Below are positions 1,326 to 49,520 of a stretch of DNA of 60,897 nt, one piece after another. Origin of the DNA: Arthrobacter globiformis (GTDB taxonomy: Bacteria > Actinomycetota > Actinomycetes > Actinomycetales > Micrococcaceae). The position numbers and the translations under genes are program-made. The DNA lies in NCBI RefSeq assembly GCF_003261175.1, contig NZ_QLNP01000006.1, positions 1 through 60,897 of the forward strand. The letters are read 5' to 3'. The notes below the pieces were generated by a model. The model did no database searches. It had not been told where the DNA came from and saw only the letters and a program-made list of their open reading frames with translations. Each line of letters starts with the position of its first letter. Position 1 is the stretch's first letter.

Positions 1326-2622
1326 AAGCCGGCTGGCGGAAGCCCGCACCACCCCGCAGGCACTGCCGGGCTACGAAACCCGCGACACCGCCCGCTGGGT
1401 GGAGGAGCCGCCCAAAAGTACGTACCGCTCCGACTTCGAGCGCGACCGCGCCCGGGTGCTGCACTCCTCGGCGCTGCGCAGGCTCGGCGCCAAGACGCAG
1501 GTGGTTGCCCCGGACACGGACGACTTTGTCCGCACGCGGCTGACACACAGCCTTGAGGTGGCGCAGGTGGGCCGGGAACTGGGCCGTGCCCTGGGCTGCG
1601 ACCCCGACGTGGTGGACACCGCGTGCCTCAGCCATGACCTCGGCCACCCGCCGTTCGGGCACAACGGTGAATCGGCGCTCAACGAGATGGCCCACGCGAT
1701 CGGCGGGTTCGAGGGCAACGCCCAGACCCTGCGGCTGCTCACACGGCTGGAACCGAAGGTGCTCGACCCGGAAGGCAGGCCGGCCGGCCTGAACCTCACC
1801 CGGGCCAGCCTTGACGCGGCCGCGAAGTACCCGTGGTCCGCCCTGGACGCCCCCGTGGTCCACGGCCAGCGGACCAGCAAGTTCGGCGCGTATGAGGACG
1901 ACCTGCCCATCTTCAACTGGATCCGGGAAGGCGCCCCCGAACGGCGGTCCTGCCTCGAGGCGCAGGTCATGGACCTGGCGGACGACATCTCGTACTCGGT
2001 GCACGACGTCGAGGACGCGATCGTGGCCGGACACTTCCAGCTGCGGTGGATGGACAACCCGGACCACCGGGCCCGCGTGGTGGGGTACGCCAAGCAGTGG
2101 TACCTGCCGCACAACGATCCTGCCGCCATCGACGCCGCCCTGGCCCGGCTGGAAGCCACCGATGTCTGGGTGCGCGAGGCGGACGGCAGCCGCAAGTCCA
2201 TGGCGGCGCTGAAGGACATGACCAGCCAGCTCATCGGCAGGTTCTGCCAGAGCGCGCTGGAAACCACCCGCGCCGTGTACGGCCCGGCGAACCTGACCCG
2301 CTACAATGCCGAACTCATGGTCCCGGACGAGACCGTCCTGGAGATCGCGGTGATGAAGGGCCTGGCCACCACGTTCGTGATGACCACCGACCACCGGCAG
2401 CCCATCTACGAGCGCCAGCGCGAGGTACTCCACGCCCTGGTGACGGCGCTGAACGCCTCCGGCGACCGGCACCTCGAGCCCATGTTCGCCGCCGACTGGC
2501 GCGAAGCGGCCGACGACGCCGCCCGGCTCCGGGTGGTCATCGACCAGGTGGCATCGCTGACGGACGGCTCGGCACTGGCCATGTACGAACGGCTCGTGGG
2601 CAGCCTGCCGTCCCTGTGGTGA
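1309..2622 (+). CDS. dgt: deoxyguanosinetriphosphate triphosphohydrolase-like protein
   Basis: This is an HD-superfamily dNTP triphosphohydrolase, which splits a dNTP into a deoxynucleoside and triphosphate and so limits dNTP pools. The 437-residue protein shows RLGAKTQV (58-65), His80, the HD pair at 109-110 within HDLGHPPFGHNGE, and a later Asp in DLADDISYSVHD, which together form the metal site. Length and motifs fit the actinobacterial dgt family. The ATG at 1309 overlaps the end of dusB; a GTG three codons later (1318) is an alternative start. Whether dGTP is the preferred substrate cannot be read from sequence. Confidence 0.92.
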   Translation: MCPVAESRLAEARTTPQALPGYETRDTARWVEEPPKSTYRSDFERDRARVLHSSALRRLGAKTQVVAPDTDDFVRTRLTHSLEVAQVGRELGRALGCDPDVVDTACLSHDLGHPPFGHNGESALNEMAHAIGGFEGNAQTLRLLTRLEPKVLDPEGRPAGLNLTRASLDAAAKYPWSALDAPVVHGQRTSKFGAYEDDLPIFNWIREGAPERRSCLEAQVMDLADDISYSVHDVEDAIVAGHFQLRWMDNPDHRARVVGYAKQWYLPHNDPAAIDAALARLEATDVWVREADGSRKSMAALKDMTSQLIGRFCQSALETTRAVYGPANLTRYNAELMVPDETVLEIAVMKGLATTFVMTTDHRQPIYERQREVLHALVTALNASGDRHLEPMFAADWREAADDAARLRVVIDQVASLTDGSALAMYERLVGSLPSLW

Positions 2623-2683
2623 GCTTGGACGCACCAGTCCACATACGCCCGGGAAGCGCTGCCCGTGACAGTGCGCCAGAGAC

Positions 2684-2689
2684 TAGGAT
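2684..2689 (+). promoter_or_regulatory. candidate -10 element for leaderless dnaG
   Basis: TAGGAT lies six bases upstream of the GTG start of dnaG. No purine-rich Shine-Dalgarno sequence separates them. The same distance is seen at dusB. A GTGACA at 2665-2670 is too close for a standard -35. The call rests on motif and spacing. Confidence 0.4.
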
Positions 2690-2695
2690 TGCTTC

Positions 2696-4573
2696 GTGGC
2701 TGGGCTGATTAAACGGGAAGACATCGATGAAGTCCGCCAGCGCACGGACATCAAGGAAGTCGTCGACGGCTACGTCACGCTCAAGGGCGCCGGCCTCGGT
2801 TCCTACAAAGGCCTGTGCCCCTTCCACGACGAGCGCTCGCCGTCGTTCACCGTCCGCCCGCAGGTGGGCCGCTACCACTGCTTCGGCTGCGGCGAGGACG
2901 GCGACGTCATCTCGTTCGTGCAGAAACTGGACCACACCTCCTTCCACGAAGCCGTAGAGAAGCTGGCCGCGCGGATCGGGTACGAGCTCCGCTACGAGGA
3001 CGGCGGCACGGGTCCAAGCCGCGAGGAAGTCGGCAAGCGCCAGCGGCTCCTCGATGCACACAAGATCGCCGACGAGTTCTTCCGTGCCCAGCTGCTGACA
3101 GCCGGCGCCGCCGAGGGCCGGAAGTTCCTGCAGCAGCGGGGCTTCGACCGGGCAGCGGCCGACCACTTCGGCGTCGGCTACGCACCCCAGGGCTGGGACG
3201 CGCTGCTCAAGCACCTGCGCGGCCGGGGCTTCACGGATGCCGAGCTGAAACTGACCGGGATGTTCTCCGCCGGGGGACACGGCAACCAGCAGAGGATCTA
3301 CGATCGGTTCCGCGGCCGCCTCATCTGGCCCATCCGGGACATCGCCGGGGACACCATCGGCTTCGGTGCCCGCAAGCTCTACGAGGACGACCAGGGCCCC
3401 AAGTACCTGAACACCCCGGAAACCACGCTCTACAAGAAGTCCCAGGTGCTGTACGGCATCGACCTCGCCAAGCGGAGCATCGCCAAGGACCGGCAGCTGG
3501 TGGTGGTGGAGGGCTACACGGACGTCATGGCCTGCCACCTTGCCGGAATTCCGACGGCGGTGGCCACCTGCGGCACGGCGTTCGCCGCCGACCACATCAA
3601 GATTGCCCGCCGCCTGCTGTCCGACGACGGCACCGGGGGAGAGGTCATCTTCACCTTCGACGGCGATGCCGCCGGACAGAAGGCCGCCCTCCGGGCCTTC
3701 GAGGAGGACCAGCGCTTCGTGGCGCAGACCTACGTGGCCGTCGAACCCACCGGGGCCGACCCCTGCGACCTGCGCCAGACGAGGGGTGACGCCGCCGTCC
3801 GTGACCTGATCGCATCCCGGCGGCCGCTTTTCGAATTCGCCATCCGCGCCACCCTGCGGAGGCACAACCTGGACACCGTGGAGGGGCGGGTCGGCGCACT
3901 GCGTGAGTCCGCTCCTGTTGTGGCCCAGATCCGCGATGCAGGGCTCCGGCCTGGCTATGCCCGGGAACTGGCCGGGTGGCTGGGAATGCCCATCGAGGAC
4001 GTCTCCAGGGCAGTGGGCGCCGCCGCGAAGCGGGTCAGCGATCCGGAAGCTCCCGGCGTAGCGGCGCTCCCGCCGTCGGGCGTCCTTCCGTCCTTCCACC
4101 GCCCCGACCCCCGGGACCCGGTGGCGTCCATGGAGCGGCAGGCCCTCGAGGTGGCGCTGCAGGAGCCGGCGATGCTGGGGGGTGCGGCCTGGGAGCGGTT
4201 CGCGACCGCCCGGTTCGCCACGCCCGCCTACCAGGCCATCCACGACGCCATCCGCGCCACGGCGCCAGGCTTCTCCGGCGATGCCGTGCAGTGGGTGGAA
4301 GCGTTGCGGCAGGAGGTTCCCGAGCCGTTGCAGCCGCTGGTTTCGGAGCTCGCCGTGGTGCCACTGCCTGCGAACACTGCCGAAGCGGTGCAGAAGTACT
4401 GCCGCGACATCCTCGCCAGGCTGTTCGAGCTGCAGATCACCCGCATTAAGGCGGACAAACTGGGTCAGTTGCAGCGGCTCGATTCCACTGCCCACCCGGA
4501 GGAGTTCCAGCAGCTGAACCGCGAGCTCATGATGCTCGAAATGGAGCGCCGGTCGCTGCGCTCCGATGCTTAG
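2696..4573 (+). CDS. dnaG: DNA primase
   Basis: DnaG makes the RNA primers for lagging-strand synthesis at the replication fork. The 625-residue protein begins with a CHC2 zinc finger (Cys41, His44, Cys62, Cys65). The RNA-polymerase core follows, with the TOPRIM signatures EGYTD (272-276) and DGDAAG (322-327). A C-terminal helicase-binding domain reaches the end. The GTG start puts the zinc finger at the normal distance and lies directly after a -10-like hexamer. A 66-bp gap separates it from tRNA-Asn. It probably shares a conserved dgt-dnaG neighbourhood, as in mycobacteria. Confidence 0.97.
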   Translation: MAGLIKREDIDEVRQRTDIKEVVDGYVTLKGAGLGSYKGLCPFHDERSPSFTVRPQVGRYHCFGCGEDGDVISFVQKLDHTSFHEAVEKLAARIGYELRYEDGGTGPSREEVGKRQRLLDAHKIADEFFRAQLLTAGAAEGRKFLQQRGFDRAAADHFGVGYAPQGWDALLKHLRGRGFTDAELKLTGMFSAGGHGNQQRIYDRFRGRLIWPIRDIAGDTIGFGARKLYEDDQGPKYLNTPETTLYKKSQVLYGIDLAKRSIAKDRQLVVVEGYTDVMACHLAGIPTAVATCGTAFAADHIKIARRLLSDDGTGGEVIFTFDGDAAGQKAALRAFEEDQRFVAQTYVAVEPTGADPCDLRQTRGDAAVRDLIASRRPLFEFAIRATLRRHNLDTVEGRVGALRESAPVVAQIRDAGLRPGYARELAGWLGMPIEDVSRAVGAAAKRVSDPEAPGVAALPPSGVLPSFHRPDPRDPVASMERQALEVALQEPAMLGGAAWERFATARFATPAYQAIHDAIRATAPGFSGDAVQWVEALRQEVPEPLQPLVSELAVVPLPANTAEAVQKYCRDILARLFELQITRIKADKLGQLQRLDSTAHPEEFQQLNRELMMLEMERRSLRSDA

Positions 4574-45357: not shown

Positions 45358-46689
45358 ATGAGTCCCGTTATCCTCTTTATCCTTGGTGTCGTCTTTGTGG
45401 CGGTCGGCATCGCGGTGTCCATTGCGCTGCATGAGGTGGGCCACCTGGTACCCGCCAAGCTGTTCAAGGTGCGCGTCACCAAGTACATGATCGGCTTCGG
45501 CCCCACGCTCTGGTCGACCAAAAAGGGCGAAACCGAGTACGGCTTCAAGGCGCTGCCGCTGGGCGGCTACGTCTCGATGATCGGCATGTACCCGCCCAAC
45601 AAGGAGGACGGCTCGGTGCGTCCGTCCAGCACCGGCATGTTCCAGACGCTGGCCAGCGAGGCCCGCTCCATGGCCCATGAAGATGTGGGGCCGGGGGACG
45701 AGAACCGCGTGTTCTACCGGCTCCCGGTCTGGAAGAAGATCATCATCATGCTGGGCGGTCCGGCAATGAACCTGCTGATCGGCCTCGTGCTCACGGCCGT
45801 GCTGCTCATGGGGTTCGGCATCTCCGAGCCCACCACCACCATCGCCGACGTTTCCAAGTGCCAGGTCAAGGCGGGGGAGACGGTCGATCCGAACTCCGCC
45901 GACTGCAAGCCGACTCCGGCCGCTGCCGCCCAGCTCAAGCCAAACGACGTCATCACCGCCTTCGACGGAAAAACCGTGACCAGCTGGGACCAGCTCACGG
46001 GCTGGATCCGCGCTTCGGCGGGCAAGGAAGTGTCCATCACTGTGGAGCGCGACGGTTCCCCGGTGACCAGCACCGTCACCCCTGTTCTGTCGGCACGCCC
46101 GGTCGTCGGTCCGGACGGGCGCCAGGCAAAGGACGACGCCGGGACCCTTCTGTACCAGGACGTCGGCTTCCTGGGCATCGGTGCGCAGACCGCCCTGGTT
46201 CCCCAGCCAGCGTCGTCCGTCCTGCCCATGGCGGGGGAGAACATCAAACAGGTTGCCGGGGTGGTCCTCAATCTGCCGGCCCGGGTGGCCGGTGTGGCCA
46301 AGGCGGCGTTCAGCGAAGAACCCCGCGACCCCAACGGCCCCATCAGCGTGGTGGGCGTGGGCCGCGTGGCGGGCGAGGTGGCCGCCATGGAGGAAGTGCC
46401 TGCCCAGGCCCGGCTTGCCGCCTTGGTGGGACTGCTTGCCGGGCTGAACTTTGCCCTGGCCGTCTTCAACCTGATCCCGCTGCTTCCGCTTGACGGCGGC
46501 CACGTGGCCGGCGCACTCTACGAGGCAGTGCGGCGGCGGGTGGCAAAGCTATTCGGCAAACCCGACCCGGGCGCCTTCGACATCGCGAAACTGCTGCCGG
46601 TGACCTACGTGGTGGCGGCGCTGCTGATGGGGATGGGTGCGCTGCTGATCTATGCGGACATCGTGAAGCCGGTGAATCTCTTCGGCTAG
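45358..46689 (+). CDS. rip1: site-2 intramembrane metalloprotease (RseP/Rip1, M50)
   Basis: This membrane protease cuts anti-sigma factors and other membrane proteins in regulated intramembrane proteolysis. The 443-residue protein has HEVGH (25-29) in its first membrane helix and LDGGH near 377 as the third zinc ligand. Four membrane helices and a PDZ domain (about 170-255) complete it. The PDZ region carries two Cys. It lies in the conserved dxr-rip pair, but ispG, normally next, is displaced by three genes here. Confidence 0.93.
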   Translation: MSPVILFILGVVFVAVGIAVSIALHEVGHLVPAKLFKVRVTKYMIGFGPTLWSTKKGETEYGFKALPLGGYVSMIGMYPPNKEDGSVRPSSTGMFQTLASEARSMAHEDVGPGDENRVFYRLPVWKKIIIMLGGPAMNLLIGLVLTAVLLMGFGISEPTTTIADVSKCQVKAGETVDPNSADCKPTPAAAAQLKPNDVITAFDGKTVTSWDQLTGWIRASAGKEVSITVERDGSPVTSTVTPVLSARPVVGPDGRQAKDDAGTLLYQDVGFLGIGAQTALVPQPASSVLPMAGENIKQVAGVVLNLPARVAGVAKAAFSEEPRDPNGPISVVGVGRVAGEVAAMEEVPAQARLAALVGLLAGLNFALAVFNLIPLLPLDGGHVAGALYEAVRRRVAKLFGKPDPGAFDIAKLLPVTYVVAALLMGMGALLIYADIVKPVNLFG

Positions 46690-46713
46690 TTCCCTCGTAT
46701 TCAGCTTAGAATG

Positions 46714-46733
46714 GCTGATTACCGAAAATCAGC
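46714..46733. promoter_or_regulatory. inverted repeat GCTGATT-N6-AATCAGC upstream of SatD gene
   Basis: A perfect 7-6-7 inverted repeat in an unusually AT-rich intergenic stretch (about 46690-46778) between rip1 and the SatD gene, about 45 bp before the start codon. The SatD protein has its own C-terminal helix-turn-helix, so autoregulation is plausible. No T-run follows, so it is not a typical terminator. Confidence 0.5.
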
Positions 46734-46778
46734 TCTAAATGATTGATTTACCAATATAAGCCGGATACGGTTCATCTC

Positions 46779-47474
46779 ATGTACGTTCTGACCATCGACC
46801 AGCGGGGCAGCACCGGCGACGTGGACCGCGTGCCCGAGCTCCTCAGGGACCTCGGCAGCCACCTCGGTGTCCGTTTTGAACGCTCGGTCGGCGACGAAGT
46901 GCAGGGCGTCCTGCAGGACCCTGCCCTTGTGGTCGACGTGGCCCTGCACGCCCTCCGAAGCGGGCACTGGTACGTCGGAATCGGCGTCGGCCCGGGGGAC
47001 CTGCCGCCAGACGCGAGTCCGCGTGAAGGGTCCGGCCCCGCCTTTGTGGCTGCCCGCCGGGCAGTGGAGCGTGCCAAGTCAGCCGCGAGGCACGTCCCCG
47101 CCGCCGTGGTCGCGGGGAGCCGGGAGCACGAGGCTGCCGTGGCGTGCGCCAACGCGGAAGCGGTGCTGCGGTTGGTCGGAGGCCTGGTGCAGGCGCGGAC
47201 CGAAGCCCAGTGGCGGGTGGTGGATGCCCTCCGTGCGAAGAGCGGTGTAGCAACCGACCAGGGCTCCGGGCGCACCGGACTCCAGAAACAGGTGGCGAGG
47301 GAACTGGGAATCACCGAACAGTCGGTGAGCCGGGCCGTCATCCGGTCCGGTTGGCAGGAAGAATGGGCGGCAAGACCGGCGGTGGAAATGCTGCTGGCAA
47401 CCGCCCACCGCCTCATCCTGGAGAACCACATCCCCGGGACTCAGGAAGGCGACGACAACCGAGGAGAAGCGTGA
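46779..47474 (+). CDS. SatD-family protein with cyclase-like core and HTH
   Basis: The 231-residue protein matches the SatD family by its start MYVLTIDQRGS and RSVGDEVQGVL. I see an order of motifs reminiscent of class III nucleotide cyclases: Asp7 in IDQRGS, Gly38-Asp39 in VGDE, GIGVGPG (67-73) and GSGPAFVAARRAVE (84-97). A C-terminal helix-turn-helix follows (168-192, VARELGITEQSVSRAVIRSGW). Catalysis is not shown. The frame extends 12 codons upstream, but the ATG at 46779 starts the conserved block. Its stop overlaps the next gene by four bases. It interrupts the usual rip-ispG order. Confidence 0.8.
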   Translation: MYVLTIDQRGSTGDVDRVPELLRDLGSHLGVRFERSVGDEVQGVLQDPALVVDVALHALRSGHWYVGIGVGPGDLPPDASPREGSGPAFVAARRAVERAKSAARHVPAAVVAGSREHEAAVACANAEAVLRLVGGLVQARTEAQWRVVDALRAKSGVATDQGSGRTGLQKQVARELGITEQSVSRAVIRSGWQEEWAARPAVEMLLATAHRLILENHIPGTQEGDDNRGEA

Positions 47475-47995
47475 ACGCAGTCTGGATCGCAGCCGCCCTG
47501 CTGACGGCCGGATTCGTGGGCTGGCCTGTCACGGCCCTGGTTTTCCGGCTGGCCCGCACCATCGACGACAAAGCCGACGCCGCCGCCAGCGCAGGCAGGG
47601 ACGGCGCCGACGACCCCTCGGCCGACGTGACGGTGGACAGCCCGGCCTCGGTGGACAGCCCGGCCGCAGGGGACAGGGTGAACACAGTGAACGGCGACAT
47701 CACGGTGGACGCTGGTGGTGCGGCCGCGCCGGAAGCCGGAGGCGAGGCGTCGGCCAAACGGATCCTCCGGGGCGGGGCCATCATCGGGGTGCTTGAGCGG
47801 CTGGCAGTCTGCCTCGCCATTCTGGCCGGGCAGCCCGTGGCAATCGCCTACGTGGTGGCCATAAAAGGCCTGGGCCGGTTCGCGGAACTCAAGGAAACGC
47901 CGGTGGCCGCGGAGAGGTTCATCATCGGCACCCTGGCCTCCATGCTGTGGGCGGCGGGAGTTGCGGCCTTCACGAAGGTCGTGCTCCTCGGCTAG
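47471..47995 (+). CDS. membrane partner of SatD, DUF3307-like C-terminus
   Basis: The 174-residue protein has an N-terminal membrane helix (3-25) and a low-complexity Ala/Asp/Val spacer (32-95) with a VDSPA-VDSPA repeat. Two further hydrophobic stretches follow (about 104-132 and 148-173). GVLERLAV (106-113) and KGLGRFAELKE (132-142) resemble the C-terminal half of DUF3307 proteins, which I recall as frequent SatD neighbours. The frame is open far upstream inside the SatD gene. The GTG at 47471, with GAGGAGAAG before it, gives a proper membrane start and a four-base overlap with the SatD gene. Confidence 0.7.
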   Translation: MNAVWIAAALLTAGFVGWPVTALVFRLARTIDDKADAAASAGRDGADDPSADVTVDSPASVDSPAAGDRVNTVNGDITVDAGGAAAPEAGGEASAKRILRGGAIIGVLERLAVCLAILAGQPVAIAYVVAIKGLGRFAELKETPVAAERFIIGTLASMLWAAGVAAFTKVVLLG

Positions 47996-48020: not shown

Positions 48021-48314
48021 ATGACTGTTTTTGCTGTTGAGTACGTATACGACGCCGAGTCCTCCGAAACGCGAGCGGCCGCCCGCCCCGCCCACCGCGA
48101 ATGGACTGCAGGACTCGCGCAGGACGGCAGGCTTCTGGCCAGCGGACCCTACGGCGACGGCGCAGGCGCCCTGCTCATTTTCAAGGCGGCCGACGAAGCC
48201 GCACTCAACGAGATCCTCCGGCAGGATCCCTTCGCGGCAGCGGGCGTCATTTCCGGCACGCGAACCACCGAATGGGCACCCGTGACCGGTCTCCTGGCTG
48301 AGCACGCAGCCTAG
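48021..48314 (+). CDS. YciI-family protein
   Basis: The 97-residue dimeric alpha-beta barrel protein has the family pattern H-x-x-W (REWTAGL), GRLLASGPYGDGAGALLIF and DPFAAAGV. YciI-like proteins have ferredoxin-like folds with a conserved His-Asp pair; their reaction is mostly unknown, with dehydrochlorinase-like activity in some. It lies on the same strand as the SatD pair and ispG, 25 bp after one and 39 bp before the other. Confidence 0.88.
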   Translation: MTVFAVEYVYDAESSETRAAARPAHREWTAGLAQDGRLLASGPYGDGAGALLIFKAADEAALNEILRQDPFAAAGVISGTRTTEWAPVTGLLAEHAA

Positions 48315-48353: not shown

Positions 48354-49520
48354 GTGACCTCGGTCAGCCTGGGAATGCCATCCGCACCACCGCCCGTCCT
48401 TGCCCCGCGACGCAAGACGCGGCAGATCAAGGTGGGCTCCGTCGGCGTCGGTTCCGACTTCCCCATCAGCGTGCAGTCGATGACCACCACGCCCACCACG
48501 GACATCAACGCCACCCTGCAGCAGATTGCCGAGCTGACGGCCTCCGGCTGCGACATCGTCCGCGTGGCGTGCCCGTCCGCCGATGACGCGGAAGCGCTTC
48601 CGATCATCGCCCGGAAATCGCAGATCCCGGTCATCGCCGACATCCACTTCCAGCCGAAGTACGTCTTCGCGGCCATCGAGGCAGGCTGTGCTGCGGTGCG
48701 CGTCAACCCGGGCAACATCCGCAAGTTCGACGACCAGGTCAAGGAGATCGCCAAGGCGGCCAAGGACCACGGCACGTCCATCCGCATCGGCGTGAACGCA
48801 GGATCGCTGGAACCGGGCATCCTGAAGAAGTACGGCAAGGCCACTCCGGAAGCTTTGGTCGAATCCGCGGTCTGGGAAGCCTCGCTCTTCGAGGAGCACG
48901 GCTTCCACGACTTCAAGATCTCCGTGAAGCACAATGACCCGGTGGTCATGGTGGCGGCCTACGAGATGCTCGCCGAAAAGGGCGACTGGCCGCTGCACCT
49001 GGGCGTCACTGAGGCCGGCCCCGCCTTCCAGGGAACCATCAAGTCGGCCACAGCCTTTGGCGCTCTCCTCTCGCGCGGCATCGGCGACACCATCCGCGTG
49101 TCCCTGTCCGCCCCTCCCGTCGAGGAGATCAAGGTGGGCAACCAGATCCTGCAGTCGCTGAACCTGCGCCCCCGCAAGCTGGAAATCGTCTCGTGCCCGT
49201 CCTGCGGGCGCGCCCAGGTGGACGTCTACACCCTTGCCGAGCAGGTCACCGCCGGCCTCGAGGGAATGGAGATCCCGCTGCGCGTCGCGGTCATGGGCTG
49301 CGTCGTCAACGGTCCGGGCGAAGCGCGGGAAGCTGACCTCGGCGTCGCCTCCGGCAACGGCAAGGGCCAGATATTTGTGAAGGGCGAGGTCATCAAGACT
49401 GTCCCCGAGAGCCAGATTGTTGAGACACTGATCGAAGAGGCCATGCGTATCGCGGAAGAGATGGGGGAGGCCGATGGCGAAGATGCTGTCAAGGGTAGCC
49501 CCGTGGTTAGCGTCTCATAA
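48354..49520 (+). CDS. ispG: 4-hydroxy-3-methylbut-2-enyl diphosphate synthase (flavodoxin)
   Basis: IspG converts MEcPP to HMBPP in the MEP pathway with a [4Fe-4S] cluster. The 388-residue protein has the N-terminal TIM barrel ([15 protein letters not shown]). The C-terminal cluster domain has the ligands in SCPSCGR (two Cys) and [13 protein letters not shown] (Cys plus the downstream Glu). The GTG start follows AAGGAG. Its end overlaps the GNAT gene by 47 bases if that gene uses its first ATG. Function ties it to dxr upstream. Confidence 0.96.

Follow-up and report, generated by a model that had tools for sequence, protein, structure and literature searches.

A SatD-like protein with a predicted cyclase fold and its membrane partner: a candidate nucleotide-signalling pair in Arthrobacter globiformis

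A stretch of 60,897 nt of Arthrobacter globiformis DNA (contig NZ_QLNP01000006.1, assembly GCF_003261175.1; family inferred as Micrococcaceae), hereafter the window, holds a satD-like gene and, overlapping it, a gene for a membrane protein, which we read as a candidate nucleotide-signalling pair (Table 1). The two genes lie downstream of rip (45358-46689), which encodes a Peptidase_M50 protein with a PDZ domain, and are followed by a YCII-like gene (48021-48314) and ispG (48354-49520). An earlier note, made from the letters of this DNA alone, had placed the pair between rip and ispG; the position is right, but the YCII-like gene also intervenes. The four-base overlap that it described is indeed formed by the start codon of the partner and the stop codon of satD. 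The satD open reading frame (ORF) opens at a TTG (46743), and the conserved start is the ATG at 46779.

Table 1. Features of the satD-like gene, its membrane partner gene and their upstream region (positions in the window)
Feature	Position	Strand	Description
Operator-like half-sites	46700-46762		TTCAGC 46700-46705, GGCTGAT 46713-46719, AATCAGC 46727-46733, TGATTGAT 46740-46747, ATAAGCC 46756-46762
Promoter	46743-46771	+	-35 TTGATT 46743-46748, 17-base spacer, -10 TACGGT 46766-46771
satD-like gene	46779-47474	+	ATG start, stop 47472-47474, 231 residues, cyclase-like palm and helix-turn-helix (HTH)
Cyclase-like palm, residues 1-113	46779-47117	+	AlphaFold: b1 2-8, a1 18-29, b2 33-35, b3 40-45, a2 48-61, b4 64-70, a3 87-101, b5 108-112
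Asp7 codon, first putative metal ligand	46797-46799	+	Kept in 171/171 scorable partnered short-type SatDs
Gly38-Asp39-Glu40 (VGDE hairpin)	46890-46898	+	Asp39 (codon 46893-46895), second putative metal ligand, kept in 172/172 scorable partnered short-type SatDs
HTH, residues ~165-190	47271-47348	+	Predicted (model and family profile)
Membrane partner gene	47471-47995	+	GTG start, 174 residues, 4 bp overlap with satD
N-terminal hydrophobic helix, partner residues 2-28	47474-47554	+	Hydropathy and model
C-terminal module, partner residues 93-172	47747-47986	+	GGxxIGxLER ... KGxxRxxEL ... ExFxxGTxxS, common with DUF3307-type SatD partners

The AlphaFold model of SatD, built on a 57-row alignment (predicted local distance difference test score, pLDDT, 92.9; predicted template modelling score, pTM, 0.88), has the topology b-a-b-b-a-b-a-b followed by helices that include the HTH. 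Asp7 stands at the end of b1, and Gly-Asp-Glu 38-40 forms the turn between b2 and b3. A Foldseek search of the Protein Data Bank (PDB) returned 540 matches at an expectation value (E) <=10. Class III cyclases, often as several chains per protein, make up 33 of the best 50 (Rv1900c, Ma1120, Cya2, Rv1264, light-activated cyclases, 3mr7 and the cyclic UMP synthase 7r65), with a root-mean-square deviation (rmsd) of 2.6-6.9 over 81-155 columns; a GGDEF domain is also among these 50. The two best E-values belong to the regulators Rv2242 and BAD_0249, which superpose poorly (rmsd ~15) and which we take to be of the PucR/CdaR type, with a palm-like domain followed by an HTH. The model thus carries two putative metal aspartates on b1 and on the b2-b3 hairpin of a palm, as class III cyclases do, with weak fold scores; sequence similarity to these cyclases is not significant among the Pfam matches listed (25 of 78 families). 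SatD is therefore predicted to be a nucleotidyl-cyclase-fold protein with its own HTH. The earlier note had come to a cyclase-like core from four motifs, IDQRGS (with Asp7), VGDE (with Asp39), GIGVGPG and GPAFVAARRAVE, and had placed an HTH after them. All four are in place, the predicted fold and the fold search agree with a cyclase- or GGDEF-type core, and an HTH is predicted. In EaPycC the metal aspartates are D102 and D146, and F100, R142 and Q144 select the base (PMC11224242, from the available text). Judged by their offset from the metal aspartates, we infer that these three would be equivalent to T5, R35 and V37 of SatD; T5 is kept in all 171 partnered short-type SatDs and R35 in 167 of the 171.

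Neither protein of the pair matches a Pfam or NCBIfam model over its cut-off. We aligned 57 SatD relatives picked from 82 representatives, TINQ-type paralogs being left out (A1), and 15 members of PF16264 (A2). Comparison of A1 with A2 by hhalign gave a probability of 99.8 and an E of 5e-29 over 190 columns across palm and HTH. PF16264 is matched by 42 of the 57 A1 members at E<=1 (best 6.4e-8), by neither the window protein nor any other in this genome, and one relative (in G284) is reached from the window protein as well as from PF16264. On these profile comparisons the name SatD is firmly right at the superfamily level. The window protein shares with PF16264, the family of streptococcal satD-satE, the fold order, the motifs D...S...GDE(F/V)Q, G-x-G and G-x-A-x-x-x-A-R, the C-terminal HTH and an adjacent membrane gene, which in streptococci is presumably satE; satD-satE was reportedly named in work on acid tolerance in S. 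mutans. It differs in belonging to a short-type group with T-x-DQ and R35, and in having a partner without the DUF3307 domain. SatD relatives occur in all 61 genomes of the genus, in 142 of 297 of the order and, at single-sequence sensitivity, in 12 of 296 of the phylum (2 of the 12 being weak, E ~6e-4); PF16264 matches 17 of the 296. A PADLOC match to HEC-01B was rejected as an identity for SatD, being a partial match of 28 residues (E 9e-4) unseen in five plasmid SatDs and their partners.

The genus holds two kinds of SatD, the copy between rip and ispG and a shorter paralog elsewhere (G000:C75:160-738, L093, in this genome). In this second copy and the paralogs L094-L100, Asp7 is replaced by Asn, Gly38 is usually Glu, the HTH is kept and no partner is recognised. 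The second copy, seen throughout the genus sample, is apparently a pseudoenzyme regulator. A further paralog of 155 residues (L101, 6897-7298, in G039) has lost, by eye, the region from inside a2 through the end of a3, b4 included. In two lineages, also by eye, a partnerless SatD without the aspartates lies beside an elongation factor P-like gene (L244, 4110-4664; L249, 2397-2957).

The putative metal site follows the partner. We surveyed 256 distinct SatD ORFs, many of them close relatives and a few being copies of one gene cut by locus ends, and defined a partner as a profile match within 1.5 kb, a definition that an unrelated membrane gene would escape. Seven ORFs with too little flank were set aside (five with both aspartates, two without), and four partnered ORFs gapped at the aspartate columns were left unscored. 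Both aspartates are kept in 194 of 194 scorable SatDs beside the usual partner and in 19 of 19 beside PycTM, the membrane component of Pycsar (213/213 together), and in only 4 of 32 with no recognised partner. The invariant columns of A1 overstate conservation, as the TINQ-type paralogs were left out; the aspartate counts instead take in all ORFs found. Among 29 partnerless short-type SatDs, D7 survives in 1, G38 in 14 and D39 in 21, whereas 28 of 28 retain G67, G69, G71 and G86, and 28-29 of 29 retain A173, L176, V183 and S184 of the HTH. Since these proteins keep the fold glycines and the HTH positions, loss of the metal site does not reflect general decay, and the functions of HTH and metal site appear separate. 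The earlier note had held that the HTH argues for a regulator; the HTH does not speak against signalling, because the partnerless SatDs keep the HTH and lose the metal aspartate. Asp7 and Asp39 are conserved in every scorable partnered SatD. None of the three outcomes that the note had named as contrary to its reading (a fold unrelated to cyclases, Asp7 and Asp39 not conserved, no recurring membrane partner) came about, although the fold scores are weak. In a tree of 85 rows with the motif columns masked, the partner state changes five times, and three of the places where the partner was lost have lost the aspartates as well: the Micrococcaceae paralogs (among which L131 still has both aspartates), the g217 clade (L242-L248) and L249. 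Of its 65 partnered rows, 63 have both aspartates and two (L167, L271) are gapped; as the latter were scored as lacking them, the six aspartate changes on the tree are too many. Our hypothesis is that the cyclase site exists to communicate with the membrane protein.

In the partner, a hydrophobic N-terminal helix leads through a low-confidence linker to a C-terminal membrane module, and G102, I105, G106, L108, E109, R110, K132, R136, E148, F150, G153 and S157 are invariant in 38 partner sequences. Outside the genus, matches mostly cover the C-terminal part alone. No Pfam model matches the window partner at E<=10, PycTM included, and PF11750 (DUF3307) matches neither the partner nor anything else in the genome. 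The model contains helices only, no beta-strands, and none of the 13 PDB matches of a fold search was better than E 5. Two actinobacterial partners (L181, L184) carry DUF3307 (E 1.2e-14 and 7.8e-13) ahead of the same C-terminal module. The resemblance to DUF3307 proteins that the earlier note had seen at the C-terminus is thus real as regards the shared module, but the DUF3307 domain proper is missing: a hydrophobic helix and a low-confidence linker replace it in the window partner. By sequence, the pair is a SatD superfamily member with a trimmed partner.

A membrane partner recurs beside SatD, as the earlier note had supposed. Within the order the partner was found in 80 of 149 genomes. By tblastn, SatD lies within 3 kb of it in 58 of the 80, on the same strand in 56 and convergent in 2; profile searches of 17 of the remaining 22 found SatD adjacent in 16, the last ending at a contig edge. 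Module and SatD thus stand side by side in 74 of the 75 genomes examined (G378, G362, G469, G438 and G492 were left out), and they stay together even where the order is flipped (L267 and L268 convergent, L270 divergent). A tblastn search with one of the two actinobacterial DUF3307 partners reached 18 plasmids, which come from haloarchaea, Vibrio, Salinivibrio, Segatella, Fusobacterium, Sphingomonas, Agrobacterium, E. coli and Klebsiella. In 10 of 10 plasmids fetched from the 18, a SatD profile match (E 4e-5 to 5e-44) lies directly upstream of the DUF3307 partner, the weakest being enterobacterial and one from Vibrio. DUF3307 proteins with a partner-type module downstream of SatD thus occur in several bacterial phyla and in haloarchaea. 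Further tblastn searches for plasmid SatDs added few, and megablast of the pEC34A pair against complete E. coli genomes found no match. On an E. coli plasmid (L232, NC_019077.1, 3770 bp; 1792-3481) and a Klebsiella plasmid (L233, NZ_LR890364.1, 4424 bp; 362-1937), the SatD-DUF3307 pair forms the two largest annotated genes; both SatD-like proteins have a YlxM-like HTH, and that of L232 has GDS, not GDE. A Tsukamurella plasmid (L360, 4001-5196) carries a short-type SatD and partner with a 4 bp overlap beside genes for SPFH and NfeD membrane proteins.

Of 80 related loci, 77 show the order dxr-rip-satD-partner-YCII-ispG; the three exceptions are short loci that lack ispG or both YCII and ispG. 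Further genera of the family also have rip, satD, partner, YCII and ispG clustered (L120-L123, L146-L148). Over 150 pairs, satD and partner overlap by four bases in 97; the partner start codon taken was the one closest to the satD stop, a choice biased towards short overlaps. A reading of the match list puts the rip-type SatD in 46 of the 61 genomes of the genus. In all 15 others rip and YCII are only 28-96 bp apart, with neither gene detected and no remnant found by tblastn. Because the order is kept in other genera and both genes are missing together in these 15 genomes, the sequence comparison indicates that the two genes form an accessory unit of ancestral origin and are lost together. The later insertion suggested by the earlier note, and with it a recent mobile origin, is rejected on the same grounds. 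A phage origin was likewise discarded: INPHARED gave no match, a pattern-limited scan of IMG/VR none that was confirmed, and a viral fold library nothing at E<=0.001.

The 80 bases upstream of satD have a G+C content of 38%, and the inverted repeat 46714-46733 is exact, with 7-base arms and a 6-base loop. The earlier note had pointed out the AT-rich region and the repeat, which is the middle pair of a longer array. We aligned 90 bases, anchored on the start codon, from 66 non-redundant Micrococcaceae loci (out of 87 distinct). Their consensus has five ATCAGC-type half-sites, with a mean of 1.86 exact ATCAGC/GCTGAT half-sites per upstream against 0.035 in mononucleotide shuffles and none in 2 of the 66, and TTGAT-N18-TANNNT is present in 65. 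The ATG lies 8 bases downstream of the -10, so that the transcript is probably leaderless. The half-sites overlap the -35 and the spacer, the arrangement expected for an autorepressor. Nowhere else in the genome is the pattern of the palindrome at 46714-46733 matched perfectly; a search for other SatD targets with this pattern, other half-site spacings not being searched, gave only matches with 2-3 mismatches, two forward and six reverse (three and two for a control pattern). The next best (G000:C38:5283-5304, L283) has two mismatches on one strand and three on the other. Upstream of the paralogs L093, L094, L095 and L100, at 55-65% G+C, no such array was seen by eye.

In nine species of one genus, the gene for PycTM (PF18967, E 6.8e-17 in L199) lies between a PF16264-type and a short-type SatD. 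The aspartates of both flanking SatDs are intact, and the usual partner is missing there. Within the family, PycTM is present in 13 of 149 genomes, and 9 of the 13 show this SatD-PycTM-SatD arrangement. We scored the partner at the 20 SatD loci returned and at four that were fetched, many other PF16264-type SatD matches being left out: of the 20, three have PycTM, 16 the usual partner and one (L312) is cut soon after satD; L333, L334, L335 and L337 have the usual partner beside SatD. Nine neighbouring ORFs scanned from three PycTM loci include no class III cyclase; the domains seen were DUF218, abhydrolase, IlvD, GatB and patatin. The swap is the most specific hint that SatD may make a nucleotide, and it suggests cyclic pyrimidine nucleotides as the first candidate chemistry. 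On a Sphingomonas plasmid (L238, 2060-9550), a SatD-DUF3307 pair adjoins a Pycsar-like cassette (cyclase, E2-associated cysteine-rich protein and PycTM) and a TIR gene.

We propose that SatD is a metal-dependent enzyme that makes a nucleotide signal and that the membrane protein of the overlapping gene responds to its product, a reading to which we give about one chance in two. After transcription from the satD promoter, SatD would repress its own operon by binding to the half-sites that overlie the -35 and the spacer. Asp7 and Asp39 would hold Mg or Mn, and SatD would convert a nucleoside triphosphate to a cyclic or otherwise modified nucleotide. The C-terminal membrane module of the partner would bind this nucleotide, or nucleotide-loaded SatD, and be held inactive; were the signal or SatD lost, the partner would be set free and would perturb the membrane. 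Computation shows the predicted fold, the conservation, the operon, the conserved upstream array and the partner dependence of the metal site; DNA binding, catalysis, a nucleotide product and an effector role are our proposals. As to the sign of control, transposon mutagenesis of S. pyogenes found satD essential in the strains examined, yet only 178 of 249 genomes have it, and the available text of that report gives no mechanism (PMC11323703). A gene dispensable by absence yet essential where present fits one that restrains its neighbour, like an antidote. The Panoptes synthase is described in similar terms, as one that may be missing but not inactivated (PMC12657230, available text). By this analogy we weakly prefer inhibitory control, with the partner held off; this is the least certain step and draws on one published observation in another phylum.

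Several observations weigh against such a nucleotide signal. No PDB match of SatD reached E<=0.001, and all TM-scores (template modelling scores) were below 0.5. Class III cyclases carry an Asn-Arg pair, the Asn of which has, by our reading, no counterpart in SatD; only R93 fits the Arg. Comparison with one PycC (from Sphingomonas plasmid L238) by hhalign gave E 0.41 and aligned only the VGD hairpin, and GDS stands in place of GDE in the SatDs of the enterobacterial, Segatella and Sphingomonas plasmids. Four partnerless SatDs hold both aspartates (L252, L173, L212, L176), and of about five independent partner changes three are informative, so that a sign test cannot reach 0.05. The PycTM swap is confined to one genus and is probably a single evolutionary event; in the other four PycTM genomes, one of them of the same genus, no SatD lies beside PycTM. 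The essentiality of satD in S. pyogenes could be an effect of polarity, the partner gene there being unseen.

Among known systems, Pycsar (PycC and PycTM) resembles the pair in its cyclase-type fold, two metal aspartates and membrane partner, and its PycTM accompanies SatD in one genus. SatD differs in its HTH, its smaller palm and the absence of significant similarity to the one PycC tested, and the usual partner has no PycTM match; the PycC-type cyclase with a PycTM or PycTIR effector that defines Pycsar is not found in the window, the swap being in another genus only. Panoptes (OptS/mCpol with OptE/2TM-beta) likewise sets a small palm synthase beside a membrane protein, and loss of its synthase is lethal when the partner is present, analogous to the essentiality of satD. 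OptE carries a nucleotide-binding beta-barrel (PMC12657218, available text), whereas the model of the window partner contains helices only and SatD has an HTH. Pfam and PADLOC scans of the pair returned nothing named mCpol or 2TM-beta, the coverage of such models in these libraries being unchecked. The working of the pair would come closest to that of a nucleotide-signal synthase coupled to a membrane effector, and no PADLOC model of a known anti-phage system matches it at full length.

The best placed alternative, though an unlikely one, is that the pair is itself an anti-phage system of the Pycsar or Panoptes kind. The combination of a cyclase-like synthase with a membrane protein, the PycTM swap and the clean presence or absence of the pair would fit such a role, as would its plasmid copies, which include those on enterobacterial plasmids of 3.8-4.4 kb, the Sphingomonas copy beside a Pycsar system and TIR gene, and an Agrobacterium copy near a nucleotidyltransferase-HEPN gene. 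However, the Arthrobacter pair is old and stands at a fixed housekeeping site in 46 of the 61 genomes, no PADLOC model covers it, no relative appears in phage records or, in the pattern-limited scan, in viral contigs, and the literature links it to acid tolerance and sugar stress.

Slightly less likely is a SatD that catalyses nothing and acts as a ligand-sensing repressor, whose palm would bind a metal-nucleotide (such as ATP, GTP or a cyclic dinucleotide) and which the partner would tether or release; the aspartates would then be ligand-binding and would be lost together with membrane control. The HTH and the conserved upstream array favour such a role, as do the partnerless SatDs, in which HTH and fold persist while the metal site is lost. 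The PucR/CdaR-type regulators Rv2242 and BAD_0249 also speak for it by giving the two best fold-search E-values, but at an rmsd of ~15 their match to SatD is not that of one superposed domain. We know of no conserved metal pair and no obligate membrane partner in regulators of this type. Two acidic metal ligands kept almost without exception are more typical of an enzyme, PycTM flanked on both sides by an intact SatD fits a diffusible nucleotide better, and the perfect palindrome stands at satD alone in the genome, with no wider regulon seen.

It is improbable that the pair regulates the envelope or the response to acid stress without a second messenger, with a functional link to the adjacent Rip1-like site-2 protease gene: the sat cluster of S. 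mutans is linked to acid tolerance and protein translocation (PMC11323703 and PMC12077213, available text) and rip adjoins in 77 of 80 loci, but outside the family the rip query finds nothing within ~1.5 kb of satD, L125, which is within the family, lacks rip at a site where partner, YCII and ispG are present, and the metal-site pattern and the PycTM swap would be left unexplained.

SatD and DUF3307 are orphan families, one satD being essential in a human pathogen: a search that did not reach most subscription papers and bioRxiv preprints found, among the papers listed, no mechanism for either, only mentions of annotation, essentiality and expression. Through the dependence of the metal site on the partner, what was a loose likeness becomes a precise hypothesis, and the upstream array lends itself to an easy reporter assay. 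A wider extension, which we regard as speculative and on balance improbable, is that SatD and its membrane partner, whether of the DUF3307 type or the module alone, form a widespread guard of inverted logic. Constant synthesis of a nucleotide by SatD would keep the partner closed, and whatever drained the nucleotide or disabled SatD would open the partner and stop the cell; the HTH would fix the level of the operon, loss of the partner would leave a plain DNA-binding regulator, and one genus would have swapped in a Pycsar effector. If this were true, few signalling guards in bacteria and haloarchaea would be as widely distributed as satD-satE.

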